A stretch of 64,000 nt of DNA from a virus. Made by a program: the position numbers and the translations under genes. Shown here in pieces: positions 1,816-57,394 of this stretch (positions within the stretch are counted from its first letter, which is position 1; every line of letters starts with the position of its first letter). Under the pieces are notes generated by a model. It did no database searches. It worked only from the letters and a program-made list of their open reading frames with translations, and was not told where the DNA came from. Location: IMG/VR virus record IMGVR_UViG_3300027792_000002, positions 1 through 64,000 of that record; one strand, 5' to 3'.

Positions 1816-1949
1816 CACGGTAACAAAGTGCAAATTTCATCCCTGCTATGGCGGTAAATTCATGTATTTCATATCGCTAAATATTTTATATTTAATTGAA
1901 AAATCAAAGTACGTATCCGGGTCGAAAATTTGCACTTGCCCGTTAGCGG
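1816..1949 (-). repeat. attC-like site 1.1
   Basis: The left core CACGGTAAC (1816-1824) is followed by the arm AAGTGCAAATTT. The matching arm AAATTTGCACTT (about 1926-1937) precedes the right core GTTAGCGG (1942-1949). The arms are perfect complements over 12 bases and enclose about 90 bases. Confidence 0.75.
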
Positions 1950-2179
1950 TTATTAAAACGACCAAACGCATCCAAACATTCCTGAACTGAGTTATGTGTT
2001 TCAGAAAATTCAGAATACCATCGTTTATCCATTCTTGGTTCTTCAACTGATGCAAGGAATGTTTTGCCTCCATCCATTGTAAAAATTGAGTACTTTCTAC
2101 TATCTGTTTTCTTTTCATAAGCATAGCAGAAATCAGGTCTTTGTTTGTTTTTTACGAGTTTAAATTCTTTTAAGTTCAT
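1943..2179 (-). CDS. Cassette-borne hypothetical protein (78 aa)
   Basis: The start ATG at 2177-2179 (MNLKEFKLVKNKQRPDFCYA...) was chosen because the longer frame begins in an AT-rich leader. The stop TAA lies inside the core GTTAGCGG (TTA at 1943-1945), so the frame ends exactly at the cassette boundary. The middle is strand rich (KYSIFTMDGGKTFLASVEEP). The cassette spans 1942-2204 with perfectly complementary ends. Its function is unknown. Confidence 0.65.
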   Translation of the reverse strand: MNLKEFKLVKNKQRPDFCYAYEKKTDSRKYSIFTMDGGKTFLASVEEPRMDKRWYSEFSETHNSVQECLDAFGRFNNR

Positions 2180-2196
2180 AATGATAAGATTAACAA

Positions 2197-2328
2197 CCGC
2201 TAACACACAATAAAAAATATATGGGTATTAGTGGTAAATTGTGCGGTCTGCTTCTAATTTAATTCAATGCGTGGGATAAGTAACCGCTTCGAAATCCCAT
2301 ACATTTCTTATTGTAAAACGTTGTGTTT
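2197..2328 (-). repeat. attC-like site 1.2
   Basis: Core CCGCTAAC (2197-2204), arm ACAATAAAAAATATATGGG, return arm CCCATACATTTCTTATTGT and core GTTGTGTTT (2320-2328). The arms match at 17 of 19 positions. The same arm family recurs at 47437-47569 in array 2. Confidence 0.8.
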
Positions 2329-2390
2329 CATTGCGCTTGAAAATTTAGGTTTAAATGAAGTGTTTCCGCAAGCGCAACGGAAAACACAAC
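2320..2390. repeat. Gene-less 71-bp palindromic mini-unit
   Basis: The unit starts GTTGTGTTTCATTGCGCTTG and ends CAAGCGCAACGGAAAACACAAC-like, so it is palindromic over about 20 bases at each end. It has cassette-type complementary cores and no room for a gene. It lies between two attC-like sites and could be a non-coding cassette or the remnant of one. Confidence 0.55.
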
Positions 2391-3003: not shown

Positions 3004-3137
3004 CGCACAACACGCAATATAAAACATGCTGGGCTTCGTGTGGTTATTGAATATTTGTTCTCGTTTCAAAATTGTAGCGGTTTGACAAGTCCGTGCTTCG
3101 TAATCCAGCACGATTTCATATTGCCATCGTTAGAGCG
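3004..3137 (-). repeat. attC-like site 1.4
   Basis: Core CGCACAAC (3004-3011), arm GCAATATAAAACATGCTGG, return arm CCAGCACGATTTCATATTGC and core GTTAGAGCG (3129-3137). The same outer arms (GCAATATA / CATATTGC) are seen at 4063-4160 and 52033-52129. Confidence 0.8.
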
Positions 3138-3210
3138 AAAGCCCGAAGGGATTTCGCTCTAACGGCTCCGTGCTTTGCGCGAGTCCAGCCCTCCGGGACT
3201 GTCCTCTAAC
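3129..3210. repeat. Mini-cassette copy A (no gene)
   Basis: The unit runs from GTTAGAGCG (3129) to CTCTAAC (3204-3210) and contains only hairpins. The first 35 bases fold on themselves, GTTAGAGCG to CGCTCTAAC (3155-3163). A second left half-site (CTCTAACGGCTCCGTGC) can pair with the right arm of the following attC. Copy B, about 95% identical by eye, is at 47053-47134 in array 2. Confidence 0.7.
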
Positions 3211-3264
3211 ACGGGCTTTGCGCACGGGCTTGCGCCTGGCGCAAAGCACGGAGCAGTTATGGGT
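3204..3264 (-). repeat. Short attC-like site 1.5
   Basis: Core CTCTAAC (3204), stem GCTTTGCGC with GCGCAAAGC, then core GTTATGGGT (3256-3264). At about 60 bases it has classical short attC size. The 15-base loop at 3224-3238 is the exact reverse complement of the loop in copy B (47148-47162). Confidence 0.8.
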
Positions 3265-4062: not shown

Positions 4063-4160
4063 GCGATAACACGCAATATAGCACAAAAGCCAAGTTAAGG
4101 CGGTGCTTCGTGGTGTGGTTCGGTGGTTGGCTTTAGATGCCATATTGCCAACGTTATAGA
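4063..4160 (-). repeat. attC-like site 1.7, right end of array 1
   Basis: Core GCGATAAC (4063-4070), arm CAATATAGCACAAAAGCCAA, return arm TTGGCTTTAGATGCCATATTG and core GTTATAG (4153-4159). The stop codon of the next gene (TTA at 4154-4156) lies inside this core. Confidence 0.8.
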
Positions 4161-4450
4161 TAATGACCACCACATCTTAAGCATCTACCACTTGCACCTA
4201 TTTTCCATACCGTTCTGCCTTTTTGTTCACAATTGCAAATGTCACTATCTATAACGTCCGCAGGTATATACAAGCGTTGGTGATCCATTACAAAACCATA
4301 TATTTTTTCGTATGTTTTGGTCAGTATATCTGTTTTCCCCCTCAAGTAGTTTGACAGGGAACTTTGGGTTATTTTTGTACCTGCTGATATTTCGCAGTTT
4401 TTTAGCCCGGAGTTTTTTATTTTTTCGATTAATTCTTTTCGTAAATCCAT
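4154..4450 (-). CDS. HTH regulator with C-terminal zinc ribbon
   Basis: In the 98-aa product, residues 1-60 look like an XRE-type helix-turn-helix (ISAGTKITQSSLSNYLRGKT). The C-terminus has two cysteine pairs (CNCEQ near 73 and CLRCGGHYL near 90) that could bind zinc. It is the right-most gene of array 1 and its TAA sits in the terminal core, with no second core on its 5' side. It may be the resident phage gene at which the cassettes accumulated. It is probably a DNA-binding regulator. Confidence 0.65.
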   Translation of the reverse strand: MDLRKELIEKIKNSGLKNCEISAGTKITQSSLSNYLRGKTDILTKTYEKIYGFVMDHQRLYIPADVIDSDICNCEQKGRTVWKIGASGRCLRCGGHYL

Positions 4451-7541: not shown

Positions 7542-8078
7542 ATGGTATTTCCCAAAGGCAAAAAAAGACCAGACATGGAAAAAAACAACTATTGGAAGAT
7601 CGCCGTTGAAAATGGGACTATTGGAAACAATAAACTATATACACCAATAGAGCTAGCAAAAAAAATTAATGAATGGGTAGAAATAACATTAAATTCTGTC
7701 TGGGAAAGAGAGGACTTTATTAAATCTGGACAAGAAGCAGGGAAAAAGATTTATTTAGAAACTCCTACTCCATTCTTAATTCAAGACCTGTGTTTGTTTT
7801 TAAAGGTTAACCGCAATTATCTGACAGATTTGAATGATAGCATAAAAAATAAAAATGATCCCGAATCAAAGGAATTTTCACGCATTATTGCACATATAGA
7901 GTTGTTAATCACAAATCAAAAGCTCCAAGGGGCAACGGTTGGAGCTTATAACCCTACGATTGTCAGTATGTTGGAAGGGTTGAGGTATAAGGCGGATGTA
8001 ACCAGTGACGGCGAGCCGTTGTCCATCAACATCAATGTAAGCTCCAACAATGTAAAGGACATCCTGAATAAGGAATGA
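7542..8078 (+). CDS. terS: Terminase small subunit (putative)
   Basis: The 178-aa product resembles the gp3-like DNA-packaging proteins of Bacteroidota phages. It has an N-terminal helical part (IELAKKINEWVEIT), the motif PTPFLIQDLCLFLKVNRNYL, and the stretch LLITNQKLQGATVGAYNPTI followed by a leucine-rich helix. It would recognise phage DNA and regulate the large subunit at 16368. ATG 7575 (MEKNNYWK) is an equally good start. Separation from the large subunit by over 8 kb is unusual, since the two are normally adjacent. Confidence 0.7.
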   Translation: MVFPKGKKRPDMEKNNYWKIAVENGTIGNNKLYTPIELAKKINEWVEITLNSVWEREDFIKSGQEAGKKIYLETPTPFLIQDLCLFLKVNRNYLTDLNDSIKNKNDPESKEFSRIIAHIELLITNQKLQGATVGAYNPTIVSMLEGLRYKADVTSDGEPLSININVSSNNVKDILNKE

Positions 8079-46455: not shown

Positions 46456-46674
46456 TTATGCCTCATTTGTAAGACACAGTAATCTAAATATCACACCATC
46501 TAATTTTTGTGCTGATGCTTCATCGTCTCGATTTCTTGCTTCTACCTTCAATTGTTCTAAATCTGTTATGATTTGATTGTCTCTTTGTAAAACAGCTTTA
46601 CGAGAAAAACGAGGCATAACAGCACCTATACCCAATTGGGCAGTTTCTTGGTTATTCAAATTTTCGTGTATCAT
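46456..46674 (-). CDS. Cassette protein whose start and stop lie in the cores
   Basis: The frame is open from 46674, but an ATG sits inside the core itself (GTTATGCC, ATG at 46615-46617), giving MPRFSRKAVLQRDNQIITDL..., 53 aa. The stop TAA lies in the other core (46456-46458). The gene therefore fills the cassette exactly. The longer version would add residues encoded by the attC arm (TAQLGIGAV). The product is charged and helical, function unknown. Confidence 0.55.
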   Translation of the reverse strand: MIHENLNNQETAQLGIGAVMPRFSRKAVLQRDNQIITDLEQLKVEARNRDDEASAQKLDGVIFRLLCLTNEA

Positions 46675-46748
46675 ATTTACTTTATTTTAAGTTGATAATT
46701 TTCTGTTTCAAATTGCCAAACTGGGCATAGCTGCGAACCGTTAGCGTT
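46613..46748 (-). repeat. attC-like site 2.1
   Basis: Core GGCATAAC (46613-46620), arm CAGCACCTATACCCAATTGG, return arm CCAAACTGGGCATAGCTG and core GTTAGCGTT (46740-46748). The CCTATA / CATAGCTG arm family is shared with sites 54223, 54834 and 55963 of array 3. Confidence 0.8.
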
Positions 46749-47004
46749 CAGTTTGCTGATGTTTGCAAGTTGCTTTATAATAACAAATATGTGTTTTGGG
46801 TGTATGAAAATGGCATTCCATAGCATTGTGATCGCAAACCGTTCGCTTCGAAACGCTAACATTTTGCAAATCCAATATTTTTAACTCACAGACGTATAAA
46901 ATCATGTCTTTTTCTTCCTGTCCGGGGTAATCACTAACGGTTACATCTTTTATAAAATTTTCTAATCGTTTCCAAAATCCTAATTCTTTCGTGTAATCCT
47001 TCAT
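46741..47004 (-). CDS. Cassette-borne hypothetical protein, starts inside an attC loop
   Basis: The 87-aa frame starts in the loop of attC site 2.2, passes through its arm and core, and stops in the next core (TTA at 46741). The product has a charged helical N-terminus (MKDYTKELGFWKRLENFIKD) and a Cys/His-rich C-terminus (ECHFHTPKTHICYYKATCKH) that could bind zinc. The function is unknown. Confidence 0.5.
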   Translation of the reverse strand: MKDYTKELGFWKRLENFIKDVTVSDYPGQEEKDMILYVCELKILDLQNVSVSKRTVCDHNAMECHFHTPKTHICYYKATCKHQQTER

Positions 47005-47061
47005 TTTATTGGTTTTTAAAATTCGTTAAAAATACTGTACTTGCAAGTTGCCGTTAGAGCG
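46852..47061 (-). repeat. attC-like site 2.2
   Basis: Core AACGCTAAC (46852-46860) followed by an arm with TTTGCAAATCC and TATTTTTAAC, return arm GTTAAAAATACTGTACTTGC, core GTTAGAGCG (47053-47061). The arms match closely over about 24 bases. The loop of about 140 bases contains the 5' half of the gene 46741-47004. Confidence 0.7.
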
Positions 47062-47134
47062 GAAGCCCGAAGGGCTTTCGCTCTAACGGCTCCGTGCTTT
47101 GCGCGAGTCCAGCCCTTCGGGACTGTCCTCTAAC
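47053..47134. repeat. Mini-cassette copy B (no gene)
   Basis: The same design as copy A at 3129-3210: inner palindrome GTTAGAGCG to CGCTCTAAC (47053-47087), then a second left half-site ending at CTCTAAC (47128-47134). Only a few single-base differences from copy A were found by eye. It is followed by the attC whose loop is inverted relative to copy A. Confidence 0.7.
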
Positions 47135-47188
47135 ACGTGCTTTGCGCCAGGCGCAAGCCCGTGCGCAAAGCACGAAGCCGTTAGGCAC
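47128..47188 (-). repeat. Short attC-like site 2.3
   Basis: Core CTCTAAC, stem GCTTTGCGC / GCGCAAAGC, core GTTAGGCAC (47180-47188). The loop at 47148-47162 (CAGGCGCAAGCCCGT) is exactly the reverse complement of the loop at 3224-3238. Confidence 0.8.
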
Positions 47189-47436: not shown

Positions 47437-47569
47437 GTGCCTAACACTAAATATAAAATATACGGGTGTTAGTGCGTATTTGAACGGTACTACCTTTAAT
47501 TAAGTGTTGTGTATCGGGATAGGATACCGCTTTTAATCCCGTACATTTCATATTTTTAACGTTAGGCAC
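47437..47569 (-). repeat. attC-like site 2.4
   Basis: Core GTGCCTAAC (47437-47445), arm AAATATAAAATATACGGG, return arm CCCGTACATTTCATATTTTT and core GTTAGGCAC (47561-47569). Same arm family as site 1.2. Confidence 0.8.
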
Positions 47570-52032: not shown

Positions 52033-52129
52033 GGCTATAACAATCAATATAAAACAGTTGCCAGAAAACTGCATCATATTTTGAAACATCTTACAAGGCA
52101 ACCGTTTCATATTGCCGACCGTTAGTAGC
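52033..52129 (-). repeat. attC-like site 3.1
   Basis: Core GGCTATAAC (52033-52041), arm CAATATAAAACAGTTGCC, return arm GGCAACCGTTTCATATTG, core GTTAGTAGC (52121-52129). Arms almost perfect over 18 bases. Confidence 0.85.
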
Positions 52130-52309: not shown

Positions 52310-53092
52310 TTAAATTAAATTAATTCCCTCTACTACTCCACTTCCAAGCCCATTCTTTTCAGAAGTAGTATTCGGGTTTATTGGGCTTATTTTTATGAAA
52401 AATTTATCCTTATCGAAATACTGTTTAATCTTTTCAATATCAAAGTCTTTTTCTTCTACCAAAGTTAAATTTATGGTAGTTTTCAAATTGCTTTCGGTTC
52501 TTACATTTCCAAGTTGCTCAATGGTCATTTTATTTTTGTAAGGTATTAGCCAATTCCTATGCTCTTCATCTAAGCTATGCAAAGAAAGTTGCAGCGTTAC
52601 ATTGTCTTTTATCCAAGTAAAATCGGCATCTTTCAAACCAATAGTTGAAATGTAGTGGTGTGTATTTGGGTAGTGTTGGCTTATTTTTTCAATTGCCTTT
52701 TTAACGTTTTCAATATTTAAAAACGGCTCTCCCATTCGAGTATAGTTTATTTTAAATTCTTTACTATTCAATGGGTTTATGTTGTTTTTAGCAATTATAA
52801 ACTCAACTTGTGTTGTAATTTCTTGCCAAGTCAAATTACGCCAACTTTTCATTTGTCCAGTTGCACAAAACTTGCATCTTACAGGGCAACCACTCATTAC
52901 ACTTACCCCAATCATCCAACGTTCTGAACGGTCGCTTAATTCGTAGTTCTCGAGCATATTTTGTTTTCTACCTATTGCATCTTTTGTATAAAAAGGCAAA
53001 AAGGTATCAGTAGTTTCAATCAACATTCCGTCCTCTAATTCGAGGCAATAAACTCTACCGTTTTTAAAGTTCTTTTGTTTTTTAATTTTCAT
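52310..53092 (-). CDS. RlmN/Cfr-like radical SAM protein lacking its C-terminal cysteine
   Basis: The 260-aa product has the CxxxCxxC cluster (SGCPVRCKFCATG, C69, C73, C76), then YTRMGEPFLNIENVKKAIEK, STIGL, LQLSLHSLDEEHRNWLIPY, as in RlmN/Cfr radical SAM methyltransferases that methylate adenosine in 23S rRNA or tRNA. The usual C-terminal cysteine is absent; it is encoded by the 40-aa frame 52176-52298 next door. RlmN is normally about 350-390 aa; this lacks the N-terminal RNA-binding extension. It lies alone with its partner in one cassette. Substrate unknown. Confidence 0.75.
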   Translation of the reverse strand: MKIKKQKNFKNGRVYCLELEDGMLIETTDTFLPFYTKDAIGRKQNMLENYELSDRSERWMIGVSVMSGCPVRCKFCATGQMKSWRNLTWQEITTQVEFIIAKNNINPLNSKEFKINYTRMGEPFLNIENVKKAIEKISQHYPNTHHYISTIGLKDADFTWIKDNVTLQLSLHSLDEEHRNWLIPYKNKMTIEQLGNVRTESNLKTTINLTLVEEKDFDIEKIKQYFDKDKFFIKISPINPNTTSEKNGLGSGVVEGINLI

Positions 53093-53122: not shown

Positions 53123-53256
53123 AGCTACTAACACCGTATATAAGTAATTGGGGTTTAGCTTGTTAATTAATCATTCTGCCACGTATTTAGGTCTGTATAT
53201 TTTGATAGGTTCGCTCTTCGCATTCCCCAACTACTCATATACGAACCGTTACCGCC
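53123..53256 (-). repeat. attC-like site 3.2
   Basis: Core GCTACTAAC (53123-53131), arm CGTATATAAGTAATTGGGG, return arm CCCCAACTACTCATATACG, core GTTACCGCC (53248-53256). Arms pair at 17 of 19 positions. Confidence 0.85.
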
Positions 53257-53618: not shown

Positions 53619-53714
53619 GGCGGTAACAACAGCTATATGTTATTGCCGTCAAAGTTTAGTGTTGTTTTGAAAGTTTATCGTTTGGCAACAACACATAGCC
53701 AAAACGTTAAGTGC
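53619..53714 (-). repeat. attC-like site 3.3
   Basis: Core GGCGGTAAC (53619-53627), arm CAGCTATATGTTATTGCCG, return arm TTGGCAACAACACATAGCC, core GTTAAGTGC (53706-53714). Confidence 0.8.
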
Positions 53715-53871: not shown

Positions 53872-54186
53872 TTAAGAAGCTACCCATATCTGCGATGGTC
53901 TTTCAAATTCTTTGCATCCTACATTTGCATCGGTATGATAATCATTTGTCTTATCGTTGTTCGGTTTATTTTCACATCTAATTGCATAATGAACTTGACA
54001 CCCTGCAATTATTACATGATTATTTTCACTACCAACTTTTGCAAACCAGTTAGAGCTATTCCTATTGGTTTTTAAACCAAGAAATGTATCTTCAATTATT
54101 TCAACTTCACCCCAAACAGCTCTATATTGTTTACCATCGGGGGCTAAAAACCAAGCATCTGTTGTTATTAAATATTTTCCTTTCAT
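53872..54186 (-). CDS. Cassette-borne hypothetical protein (104 aa)
   Basis: The start at 54186 (MKGKYLITTDAWFLAPDGKQ...) is preferred; a longer frame from 54291 runs through the attC arm. The product is a beta-rich small protein (YRAVWGEVEIIEDTFLGLKT, FAKVGSENNHVIIAGCQVHY). This family-like pattern (a protein that begins by describing a Trp-rich barrel) is often found in integron arrays; function unknown. Confidence 0.65.
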   Translation of the reverse strand: MKGKYLITTDAWFLAPDGKQYRAVWGEVEIIEDTFLGLKTNRNSSNWFAKVGSENNHVIIAGCQVHYAIRCENKPNNDKTNDYHTDANVGCKEFERPSQIWVAS

Positions 54187-54222: not shown

Positions 54223-54321
54223 GTGCATAACCGCACCTATAAGCAAGTTTGCGGACAGGGTTTCTGTAACTTGACACATGCTGCAACGCAAACCTGCTCA
54301 TAGCTGCAACACGTTAGCGTT
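54223..54321 (-). repeat. attC-like site 3.5
   Basis: Core GTGCATAAC (54223-54231), arm CGCACCTATAAGCAAGTTTG, return arm CGCAAACCTGCTCATAGCTG, core GTTAGCGTT (54313-54321). Same family as sites 2.1 and 3.7. Confidence 0.85.
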
Positions 54322-54528: not shown

Positions 54529-54662
54529 AACGCTAACAATGTGTATCATCAATAAGGGTTTCAGTGCAATTAGTAAGGTCTGTAATCCGCTCAAACGTTG
54601 GTATAATTCGATTGGAACTGCCACGCAATCCCTTACTGAATGATACACCAACCGTTAGCAGT
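54529..54662 (-). repeat. attC-like site 3.6
   Basis: Core AACGCTAAC (54529-54537), arm GTGTATCATCAATAAGGG, return arm CCCTTACTGAATGATACAC, core GTTAGCAGT (54654-54662). Confidence 0.85.
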
Positions 54663-54665
54663 AAT

Positions 54666-54899
54666 TTAGGATTGTGTTCCAAAATCAAGGCTGTCAACTT
54701 TCTTTTTTAATTCCTCATCTTTACCCATCCAAGCAAAGGCAATATCATAATAGGTATCTAAATCCCAGCCTTTCAACTGTGGGTTTTTAAGTTTAGCGTG
54801 TTCTTCCAATTTGTCGATTAGTGAATAAAAACTACTGCTAACATCACCTATACCAAATTTGGCAGCGTGTGCAGTTCTGATTTTTTTTACCTTATCCAT
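54666..54899 (-). CDS. Cassette protein that starts in an attC loop (77 aa)
   Basis: The only ATG start (54899) lies in the loop of attC site 3.7. The first 20 residues (MDKVKKIRTAHAAKFGIGDV) are encoded by the attC arm and core; the rest (SLIDKLEEHAKLKNPQLKGW...) by the cassette. The product is helical and charged. It illustrates translation across an attC junction. Confidence 0.6.
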   Translation of the reverse strand: MDKVKKIRTAHAAKFGIGDVSSSFYSLIDKLEEHAKLKNPQLKGWDLDTYYDIAFAWMGKDEELKKKVDSLDFGTQS

Positions 54900-54969
54900 A
54901 GTTTTGTATGTATTTGATTATTAATTTCTTTTAAAGCCAAACTTGGCATAGCTGAGTACCGTTGTGTGC
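54834..54969 (-). repeat. attC-like site 3.7
   Basis: Core ACTGCTAAC (54834-54842), arm CACCTATACCAAATTTGGCA, return arm GCCAAACTTGGCATAGCTG, core GTTGTGTGC (54961-54969). It contains the start codon of gene 54666-54899. Confidence 0.8.
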
Positions 54970-55962: not shown

Positions 55963-56095
55963 GCGTACAACCCAACCTATAACCAATAAAGGTTTTAGTG
56001 GTTAATCCAAAGTTGCAGCTCGCATCAGCTTTTGTGTATTTTGATAGGCACGAAGCCCGTAATCCTTTACTGGTCATAGCTTCAACGTTGTAACC
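55963..56095 (-). repeat. attC-like site 3.8
   Basis: Core GCGTACAAC (55963-55971), arm CCAACCTATAACCAATAAAG, return arm CTTTACTGGTCATAGCTTC, core GTTGTAACC (56087-56095). The left core differs by two bases from the complement of the unit's other end (GTTGTGTGC, 54961). From 55819 to 56134 no gene is seen apart from this site and the promoter-like AT-rich leader. Confidence 0.75.
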
Positions 56096-56647: not shown

Positions 56648-57073
56648 TCATGCAAGGATAGCACCGTGCATAATGACAAAGTATAGTTTATTTGGTTCTG
56701 CTCCCCATTCAGGGTTGCCTGTTCTGATTTCAATTCCTTTATGTTTAAGTTTTAAAATACGTTCTGAATCGGTTGATTTTGGATAACCTAAAGTCATTAC
56801 GTTTATATCAAACTTTTTACTGTGATTTTTAACTAAGTAATTTTGGTCAATATGTTTTAAAATACCATCAATGGCATCCTGTTCAATCGGATAAATTGCA
56901 TTATATCGCTCTGACATTAGTCTTTTAATCCAATAATGATTAACTTCCCGATAGTCCTCTCTCTTTATTCCTGCTTTTGTCATTTCAAACCATTTAGTTT
57001 TTAAAGATAAATGCAGGCACGAAGGCATAACACTATGTTTATGCAATTGGGGGTTTTGTTCGTTATTCATCAT
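56648..57073 (-). CDS. ASCH-domain protein
   Basis: The product (141 aa; 125 aa if it starts at the ATG inside core GTTATGCC) reads LHLSLKTKWFEMTKAGIKRE, then EDYREVNHYWIKRL, then VMTLGYPK and KHKGIEIRTGNPEWGAEPNK, the pattern of ASCH-family proteins. ASCH domains are thought to bind RNA and are common in phages and mobile elements. The N-terminal 16 residues of the longer form come from the attC arm. Confidence 0.75.
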   Translation of the reverse strand: MMNNEQNPQLHKHSVMPSCLHLSLKTKWFEMTKAGIKREDYREVNHYWIKRLMSERYNAIYPIEQDAIDGILKHIDQNYLVKNHSKKFDINVMTLGYPKSTDSERILKLKHKGIEIRTGNPEWGAEPNKLYFVIMHGAILA

Positions 57074-57155
57074 TGTATCAATTTATTAAGTTACTACTAT
57101 TTTGACAGTGCAGTGGTTTCTACTCCCCAACTGCACAAACATTTAACGTTATAAA
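57024..57155 (-). repeat. attC-like site 3.10, right end of array 3
   Basis: Core GGCATAAC (57024-57031), arm ATGTTTATGCAATTGGGG, return arm CCCCAACTGCACAAACAT, core GTTATAAA (57148-57155). The stop codon of the zinc-ribbon gene 57149-57394 lies in the right core. Confidence 0.8.
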
Positions 57156-57394
57156 ACAGTTTTCCAACCGTTGCCGCAGTTAAGGCAAATCTGTTCGGTT
57201 GTGTTATTATCTGTTTTATGTGGTTTGTTACATTCAGGGCAAACCGATTTCATAATACTTTGTAAATTGTATAATTTTACTATTTCGTCTGCAATTGTTT
57301 CAAACTGTGTTTCATCAACGTTATCAAAATCAGCGTGCATATTCATTGAACATTCAGCTTTTTTCTTTAGTATTTTAATTATTTTTTCTTTCAT
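57149..57394 (-). CDS. Zinc-ribbon protein at the right end of array 3 (81 aa)
   Basis: The 81-aa product has a helical N-terminus (MKEKIIKILKKKAECSMNMH) and a C-terminal zinc ribbon (CPECNKPHKTDNNTTEQICL then NCGNGW). Its TAA sits in the core at 57149-57151 and no second core is visible upstream. It lies between array 3 and the DnaA-like gene. Like 4154-4450, it joins a metal-binding end to a terminal core. Confidence 0.65.
   Translation of the reverse strand: MKEKIIKILKKKAECSMNMHADFDNVDETQFETIADEIVKLYNLQSIMKSVCPECNKPHKTDNNTTEQICLNCGNGWKTVL

Follow-up and report, generated by a model that had tools for sequence, protein, structure and literature searches.

Most cassette genes of described integrons have a translation start of their own, and the attC recombination site is regarded as non-coding, structured DNA. 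Here we analysed attC-like hairpins in a window of 64,000 nucleotides (the whole stretch of DNA studied, positions 1 to 64,000 of IMG/VR virus record IMGVR_UViG_3300027792_000002, or nearly all of its 64,616 bases), where start and stop codons appear to be built into the recombination sites themselves, as they do at scale across related viral contigs. Several described systems come close. Phage-borne clusters of attC sites lacking integron integrases (CALINs) are known, and IntI1 recombined five of six attC sites taken from virulent phages (Qi et al. 2023, PMC9892861); IntI recombination has been demonstrated for the attC of another Bacteroidetes phage, P12002L_attC2 (PMC9892861). The attI1 site of class 1 integrons contains ORF-11, ORF-17 and ORF-18, of which the ORF-11 leader is translated from within an integron site (PMC8876359), and fused gene cassettes occur in class 1 integrons as rare products of attC loss (PMC4670013).

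The window contains two minus-strand clusters of cassettes and attC-like hairpins (57.2-46.4 kb and 4.2-1.8 kb), with ten sites detected by a covariance model (CM) and about 16 by hairpin. Since the record yielded no tyrosine recombinase (no match to PF00589 or TIGR02249), it is a CALIN in integron terms, having at least two attC sites and no integron integrase nearby. We propose, at a probability of roughly 0.85, that in such integron-type phage arrays (of Bacteroidetes phages where the host is known) the attC hairpins double as translation starts of the next cassette. The unpaired, A-rich loop of the attC at a cassette end would supply an ATG, from which an open frame would run along the 3′ arm (encoding QLGIGA, QLNIGA, AFLVGA and others) and cross the GTT/A core into the next cassette. 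Many cassettes would thus be complete domains without a start codon, made as leader-plus-body proteins, and over half of the combined open reading frames (ORFs) would end in TAA followed by C, the pattern of the following R″ core. Because the crossover would then lie inside the gene, some 15-25 codons past its start, cassette exchange would replace the N-terminal leader, and only if the phases match.

Loop-started genes follow only three of the approximately 16 window hairpins (46456-46674, 54666-54899 and 56648-57073). They and one further site with an open arm are listed below; a slash marks the junction at the core.

46614..46746 (-): leader-coding attC, recognised by hairpin and reading frame; R″ GCTAAC at the 46746 end, R′ GTTATGCC at 46620-46613, loop ATG at 46674-46672
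46456..46674 (-): ORF MIHENLNNQETAQLGIGA/VMPRFSRKAVL...NEA and stop, running from the loop ATG through arm and core; TAA within GCATAAC
54836..54967 (-): leader-coding attC; core GTTAGCAGT without ATG, loop ATG at 54899-54897
54666..54899 (-): start-less cassette ORF MDKVKKIRTAHAAKFGIGD/VSSSFYSLIDKLEEHAK..., whose sole early in-frame ATG is in the loop of the upstream attC
57025..57154 (-): leader-coding attC upstream of the ASCH-like cassette; loop ATG at 57073-57071, core GTTATGCC; CM score 70 bits
56648..57073 (-): ASCH-like cassette protein MMNNEQNPQLHKHS/VMPSCLHLSLKTKWFEMT..., with homologs in records L004 and L007 behind other attC leaders
54225..54319 (-): attC with open frame SANLLIGAVM; its cassette gene, 53872-54186, has in addition an ATG of its own 45 nt past the core

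The sites at 46614-46746 and 54836-54967 score 136 and 98 bits with the covariance model R1, to whose training set both belong. The junction of ORF 54666-54899 reads MDKVKKIRTAHAAKFGIGD/VSSSFY and that of ORF 56648-57073 MMNNEQNPQLHKHS/VMPSCLHL; the ASCH-like label of the latter comes from weak plasmid homologs annotated ASCH.

An earlier, sequence-only reading of the window had noticed an ATG inside GTTATGCC at two places, 46617-46615 (core 46620-46613) and 57028-57026 (core 57031-57024), and related peptides encoded by the arms (TAQLGIGAV, SANLLIGAVM, AKFGIGDV), all of which are correct. It had also placed gene starts in the attC loop, with readthrough of arm and core, at 54666 and 46741. 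The former stands; the ORF at 46741 begins at its own ATG at 47004, and the description belongs to 46456. Among the core-made TAA stops it listed, those of ORFs 46741-47004 and 1943-2206 (both GCTAACGG) and of 4154-4450 and 57149-57394 (both TATAACGT) are formed by R″ of real attC hairpins. The stops at 46456 (GCATAACTC) and 51675 (TATAACAAT) lie in a core-like TAA, but no following hairpin was found at either, both being at array edges.

Related sites were collected by scanning viral contigs with CARYTNRRTATAGGTGNNGTTA, a pattern that prescribes GTTA and some of the 3′ arm and leaves the loop, the remaining core and the downstream frame free, and with a companion arm pattern, RYTTGGTATAGGTGNNGTTA, whose matches were mostly random. 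Together the two scans yielded 47 sites that have a hairpin; in almost all of them the loop ATG shares the reading frame of a downstream ORF, and many have cores lacking ATG. Their alignment contains 23 base pairs, with 98% of cells paired and double-sided changes at 13 pairs, a result equalled by none of 500 shuffles. The sites have the make-up of attC, an imperfect inverted repeat with AAC in R″, GTT in R′ and inner paired arms, in which AAC and GTTA are invariant over all 47; that is the only invariant part of the consensus RYYYAAC/GTTRRRY, and the cores GTTATGC, GTTATAA and GTTAGCG depart from GTTRRRY. A mid-stem G-T pair (columns 27-115 of alignment A1) is likewise invariant in 47/47 sites and may mark the strand to be chosen, as the extrahelical bases of attC do. 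Model R1, built from this alignment, detected 169 distinct attC-like sites at 73 loci in related viral contigs, in arrays of about 5-14 co-oriented sites each; it finds no site in Polaribacter phage P12002L, the bearer of an experimentally active attC. Leader-attC arrays occur in very large viral records (L267/L276, 276 kb; L330 and L213, 362 kb each; L331, 266 kb; LR756500, 462 kb), and one of them, G037, holds two, at 193-196 kb and 244-247 kb.

At 100 of the 169 sites an ORF runs from the loop ATG of the preceding attC through arm and core (85 in frame 0, 15 in frame 1). Whether attC arms keep an open frame beyond chance across many cassettes, a check suggested by the sequence-only reading, could not be decided from the window alone and was decided by the relatives. 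We defined a cassette as start-less if its frame, followed from the core, stays open for 40 codons or more and contains no ATG in the first 60 nt. In frame 0, every such cassette had an in-frame loop ATG (59 vs 0, P = 1e-20), and so did all 12 in frame 1 (P = 2e-13); the three in frame 2, one with and two without, gave no significant result. Frame-1 leaders, which read the core as G/TTA/, occur in L328, L212, L323, L067, L088, L240, L326 and others, and phases 0 and 1 adjoin within one array. As leaders come in at least two phases, leader and cassette phase must match. The idea that any inserted cassette would be translated therefore fails, the more so as many cassettes in these arrays, and in the window the majority, retain an ATG of their own about 25-60 nt past the core.

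The same model served as a negative control on Bacteroidota chromosomes, where three of 70 attC sites, among the matches listed, were loop-led, and the leader arm motif turned up in one of 790 genome look-ups (two draws, with some genomes common to both). We accordingly rejected the loop start as a general feature of Bacteroidota chromosomal attC. At 56 of those 70 chromosomal attC-like sites (L354-L365; among the matches listed) the first 250 nt after the core contain no ATG from which an ORF of at least 50 residues begins; such cassettes may be gene-less, reversed or decayed.

Several signs point to translation of the leaders. The loop ATG lies within a single-stranded, A-rich stretch (63% A upstream) without a Shine-Dalgarno sequence, and the probability of being unpaired is 0.70 in its region vs 0.23 at the core. 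Between homologous loops the start position shifts at constant phase (MLENEN, MKLEEQ and MNSNEP types). For the two largest leader classes the leader frame has a ratio of nonsynonymous to synonymous polymorphism (pN/pS) of 0.26 and 0.27, vs 0.80-2.55 in the other frames. At the other end, the stop is TAA/C in 58 of 100 leader-ORFs vs seven of 100 background ORFs, 29 of them exactly at R″ of the next CM-detected attC. The leaders precede complete Pfam domains (N6_N4_Mtase, C5 methylase, DUF4326) and are therefore additions to whole domains. For isolated phages, independent GenBank annotation already places two starts in an attC loop, both in genes that stop in TAACGT: the DNA methyltransferase QHB38775.1 of Flavobacterium phage hemulen6-1, which includes the stretch MQKTLFENENLIEPLTPAFCIGAVSR and whose attC site is also present in the hemulen, sniff and snork isolates, and ANB40960.1 of F. 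psychrophilum phage 2A. The 462-kb uncultured phage LR756500 has MEEQNLNNIENPKLGIYDVGS with a decayed core.

Leaders end at the core, where a new body begins. Mean identity over the 27 bases ahead of GTT reaches 0.93 in one main leader class and 0.89 in the other; GTTA itself stands at 1.0, and from +13 on the value is 0.30. The sharp sequence change at the crossover that characterises integron cassettes is thus found here as an identity break across GTTA, together with reciprocal swaps. Single pairs share attC sites 91-96% identical in front of bodies at 27-37%, the random level; in the reverse direction, L242_3792 and L251_13148 have attC sites 50% and bodies 75% identical, and L267 and L276, within one 276-kb record, 78% and 95%. 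Only seven homologous pairs exist among the 85 frame-0 bodies, with differing leaders in each. That near-identical attC sites stand before unrelated bodies, and differing leaders before related ones, agrees with the sequence-only expectation that a change of upstream attC would alter the N-terminus of the protein.

The ASCH-like cassette illustrates this: its homologs carry the leaders MNTEILSNENETPILRIGA/VMPSC (L004), MNNNLTTNASNEAESPAFLVGA/VMPSC (L007) and, in the window, MMNNEQNPQLHKHS/VMPSC. In others the 5′ half of the attC was not seen and an in-frame leader is kept, namely MKPTPTFLVGT or -A before VMPSC (L008-L016) and MNTSQNHQLHKHG/AMPSC (L005); more distant homologs begin at MxLQLSLK and have no leader. 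Homologs of ORF 54666-54899 have leader-like N-termini without an attC core, in L003 (MKTVKEIRNTHADRFDMGNT/SSSFY; 73% over residues 1-74, the sole relative in the viral-contig protein search) and in Leeuwenhoekiella phage Arctus_1. At about 7905-7926 (-) of L246 the arm ...TTQLGIGA/VRVRF shares the frame of a longer ORF upstream, with no evident attC 5′ half; this is perhaps a gene fusion made at the site.

Some of our own data weigh against the loop-start interpretation. The leaders are mutually related, so that the P values given above overstate independence, the bodies being mostly unrelated. The initial scan prescribed some of the arm, and the training set of the covariance model consisted of leader-type sites; the loop-led frame is still present in 27+11 of 120 weaker model matches. 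Purifying selection in frame 0 is not clear in two smaller leader classes, of which one has a pN/pS of 1.22 in that frame and the other 0.37 where frame 1 gives 0.16. Within the window only 54666-54899 strictly needs a loop start, there being no alternative ATG at or soon after its core. Other starts are possible in some cassettes, given the alternative start codons GTG, TTG and ATA and the ATG-bearing cores of 14 of the 59 start-less cassettes. A general start at the ATG of GTTATGCC, with the loop ATGs coincidental, would have in its favour that 48 of the 169 cores read GTTATG. We rejected this candidate because most cores have no ATG, and hold it very improbable: start-less, loop-led cassettes have cores without ATG in 45 cases against 14 with, and the stretch before the core codon is structured (0.23 unpaired) and G/T-rich, unlike the A-rich loop. 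As the cores of most such cassettes lack ATG (GTTAGC, GTTATA, GTTAGT, GTTAGG), the decisive start would mainly be the one in the loop. Short stop-free frames with ATG are not rare in A-rich loops, so chance might be thought to account for them; yet open loop ATGs number 95, 20 and 14 in the three frames of 169 viral sites vs 4, 2 and 6 in 70 bacterial sites among the matches listed, and this, with the coupling of 59 vs 0, leaves chance a negligible probability.

The most credible competitor, in our judgement still an unlikely one, is that the genes are static fusions, simply inherited with their leaders, and the hairpins are recombination sites no longer. An integron-type recombinase was indeed not found in the window and most records, and some relatives have a leader-like N-terminus without a hairpin. 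Against inheritance alone stand the near-identical attC sites adjoining unrelated bodies with an identity break at the core, the related bodies with unrelated leaders, the arrays of about 5-14 sites and the Xer-like recombinase adjacent to some of them. Improbable, and somewhat more so, is translational coupling without fusion, where the loop ORF would be a short leader bringing ribosomes to a separate cassette start and in-frame fusion would be incidental. Coupling of this kind is established for ORF-11 of attI1 (PMC8876359), and the leader does not always share the frame of the main ORF, as in L076 and at one site of phage 2A, where the loop frame stops seven codons past the core. But in 59+12 start-less cassettes the leader enters the body in matching phase, in the main classes the leader peptide is under purifying selection, and a leader is kept where the attC 5′ half is not seen.

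The cassettes would presumably be moved by a recombinase, either the neighbouring Xer-like enzyme or a host integrase. TIGR02249, the integron-integrase model, matched in 13 of 46 leader-attC records, always below cut-off (145-150 bits against 265 for the carrier recombinase, with model region ~206-253 unmatched). In the records examined, a tyrosine recombinase of about 267 residues with Phage_integrase and SAM-like domains follows the attC cluster on its downstream side and shares its orientation, in most cases no more than a few kb away from leader-attC sites. Its top score is to a XerA-type model, its best named model is NF040815 ('site-specific tyrosine recombinase/integron integrase'), and it falls under these and every other curated NCBIfam cut-off. 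Neither hallmark of IntI, an insertion between conserved patches and a curated score, was found: alignment to 2a3v leaves it without about 48 residues of IntI4 (41 vs 89 between conserved blocks). It may nonetheless work like IntI. Carriers include clear phages, with a portal in L240 and a terminase in L256. No complete integron (intI and attI at one locus) was found, the window giving no integrase match and the carriers' recombinase staying below cut-off; no separate attI search was made. A more far-reaching scheme, to which we give even odds, is modular N-terminal fusion, in which attC would be a movable start module of defined phase, like intron phases, and the Xer-like recombinase would reshuffle leaders with start-less bodies.

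The window itself belongs to a tailed phage, encoding a terminase large subunit, portal, tape-measure protein, DnaB-like helicase and NinG/Rap-like endonuclease; its host is probably a member of the Bacteroidetes, judging by relatives and A-rich start contexts. No tRNA and no Rfam match (Rfam 15) were found in it. One cassette gene, at 52310-53092 (-), encodes a radical-SAM protein (Pfam PF04055; RlmN/Cfr-like by eye). The remaining sites are as follows.

55965..56093 (-): attC-like hairpin, conventional; hairpin and CM
54537..54660 (-): attC-like hairpin, conventional; hairpin
53621..53712 (-): attC-like hairpin, conventional; hairpin and CM
53126..53254 (-): attC-like hairpin, conventional, upstream of the radical-SAM cassette; CM and hairpin
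52035..52127 (-): attC-like hairpin, conventional; hairpin
47439..47567 (-): attC-like hairpin (GTTAGGCAC), conventional; hairpin and CM
47081..47186 (-): GC-rich palindromic attC-like element, with a near copy at 3157-3262
4064..4159 (-): attC whose R″ TAA terminates ORF 4154-4450; hairpin
3005..3135 (-): attC-like hairpin, conventional; CM and hairpin
2198..2331 (-): attC-like hairpin, conventional; CM and hairpin
1818..1948 (-): attC whose R″ TAA terminates ORF 1943-2206; hairpin

The GC-rich palindromic elements, 96% identical over 47052-47186 and 3128-3262, consist of nested inverted repeats (CGTTAGAGCG..., TGCTTTGCGC...) at cassette junctions and have no obvious ORF.

A coding attC would explain how start-less cassettes are expressed and would set a phase rule on cassette exchange. 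Initiation would take place in an accessible loop, ribosomes beginning inside the hairpin and leaving via its arm, and N-termini exchangeable at a site-specific recombination site would be the prokaryotic counterpart of exon shuffling. For loop-led cassettes, gene finders could then place the start wrongly. The idea is testable in phages already cultured.

With integron cassettes and phage CALINs the arrays share hairpins with AAC...GTT cores, two-part stems, co-orientation, DNA methyltransferase cargo and, in the window record, the lack of an integrase. They differ from the CALINs of PMC9892861 as described there, with no mention of a start codon or leader in attC, in that attC would give the next gene its start and N-terminus. 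As with ORF-11, ORF-17 and ORF-18 of attI1, a recombination site contains a translated ORF that would aid cassettes without a translation-initiation region; those ORFs, however, sit on a single attI platform and couple after their stop, whereas here the attC lies between cassettes and its ORF is fused in frame to many unrelated bodies. Fused class 1 cassettes likewise have an ORF across a cassette junction, but in the present arrays the attC is intact and read through. The OTH-22-1 motif (PMC8632094), compared by its description, which is of structure only, likewise has RYYYAAC-type hairpins outside known attC annotation. The ~267-residue enzyme stands at the 3′ array end in the orientation of the array, an arrangement that typical integrons do not have; the intI of Treponema shares the orientation of its cassettes as well, but is transcribed toward attI (PMC3607928). 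Starts encoded by attC were not found in the literature searched (titles, abstracts and passages, exclusive of subscription journals and preprints), which is not proof of absence, and on that footing we file the loop-start attC as a variant of the integron cassette system not found described before. If it is true that the Xer-like enzyme shuffles leaders and bodies, these arrays would come closer to something categorically new.
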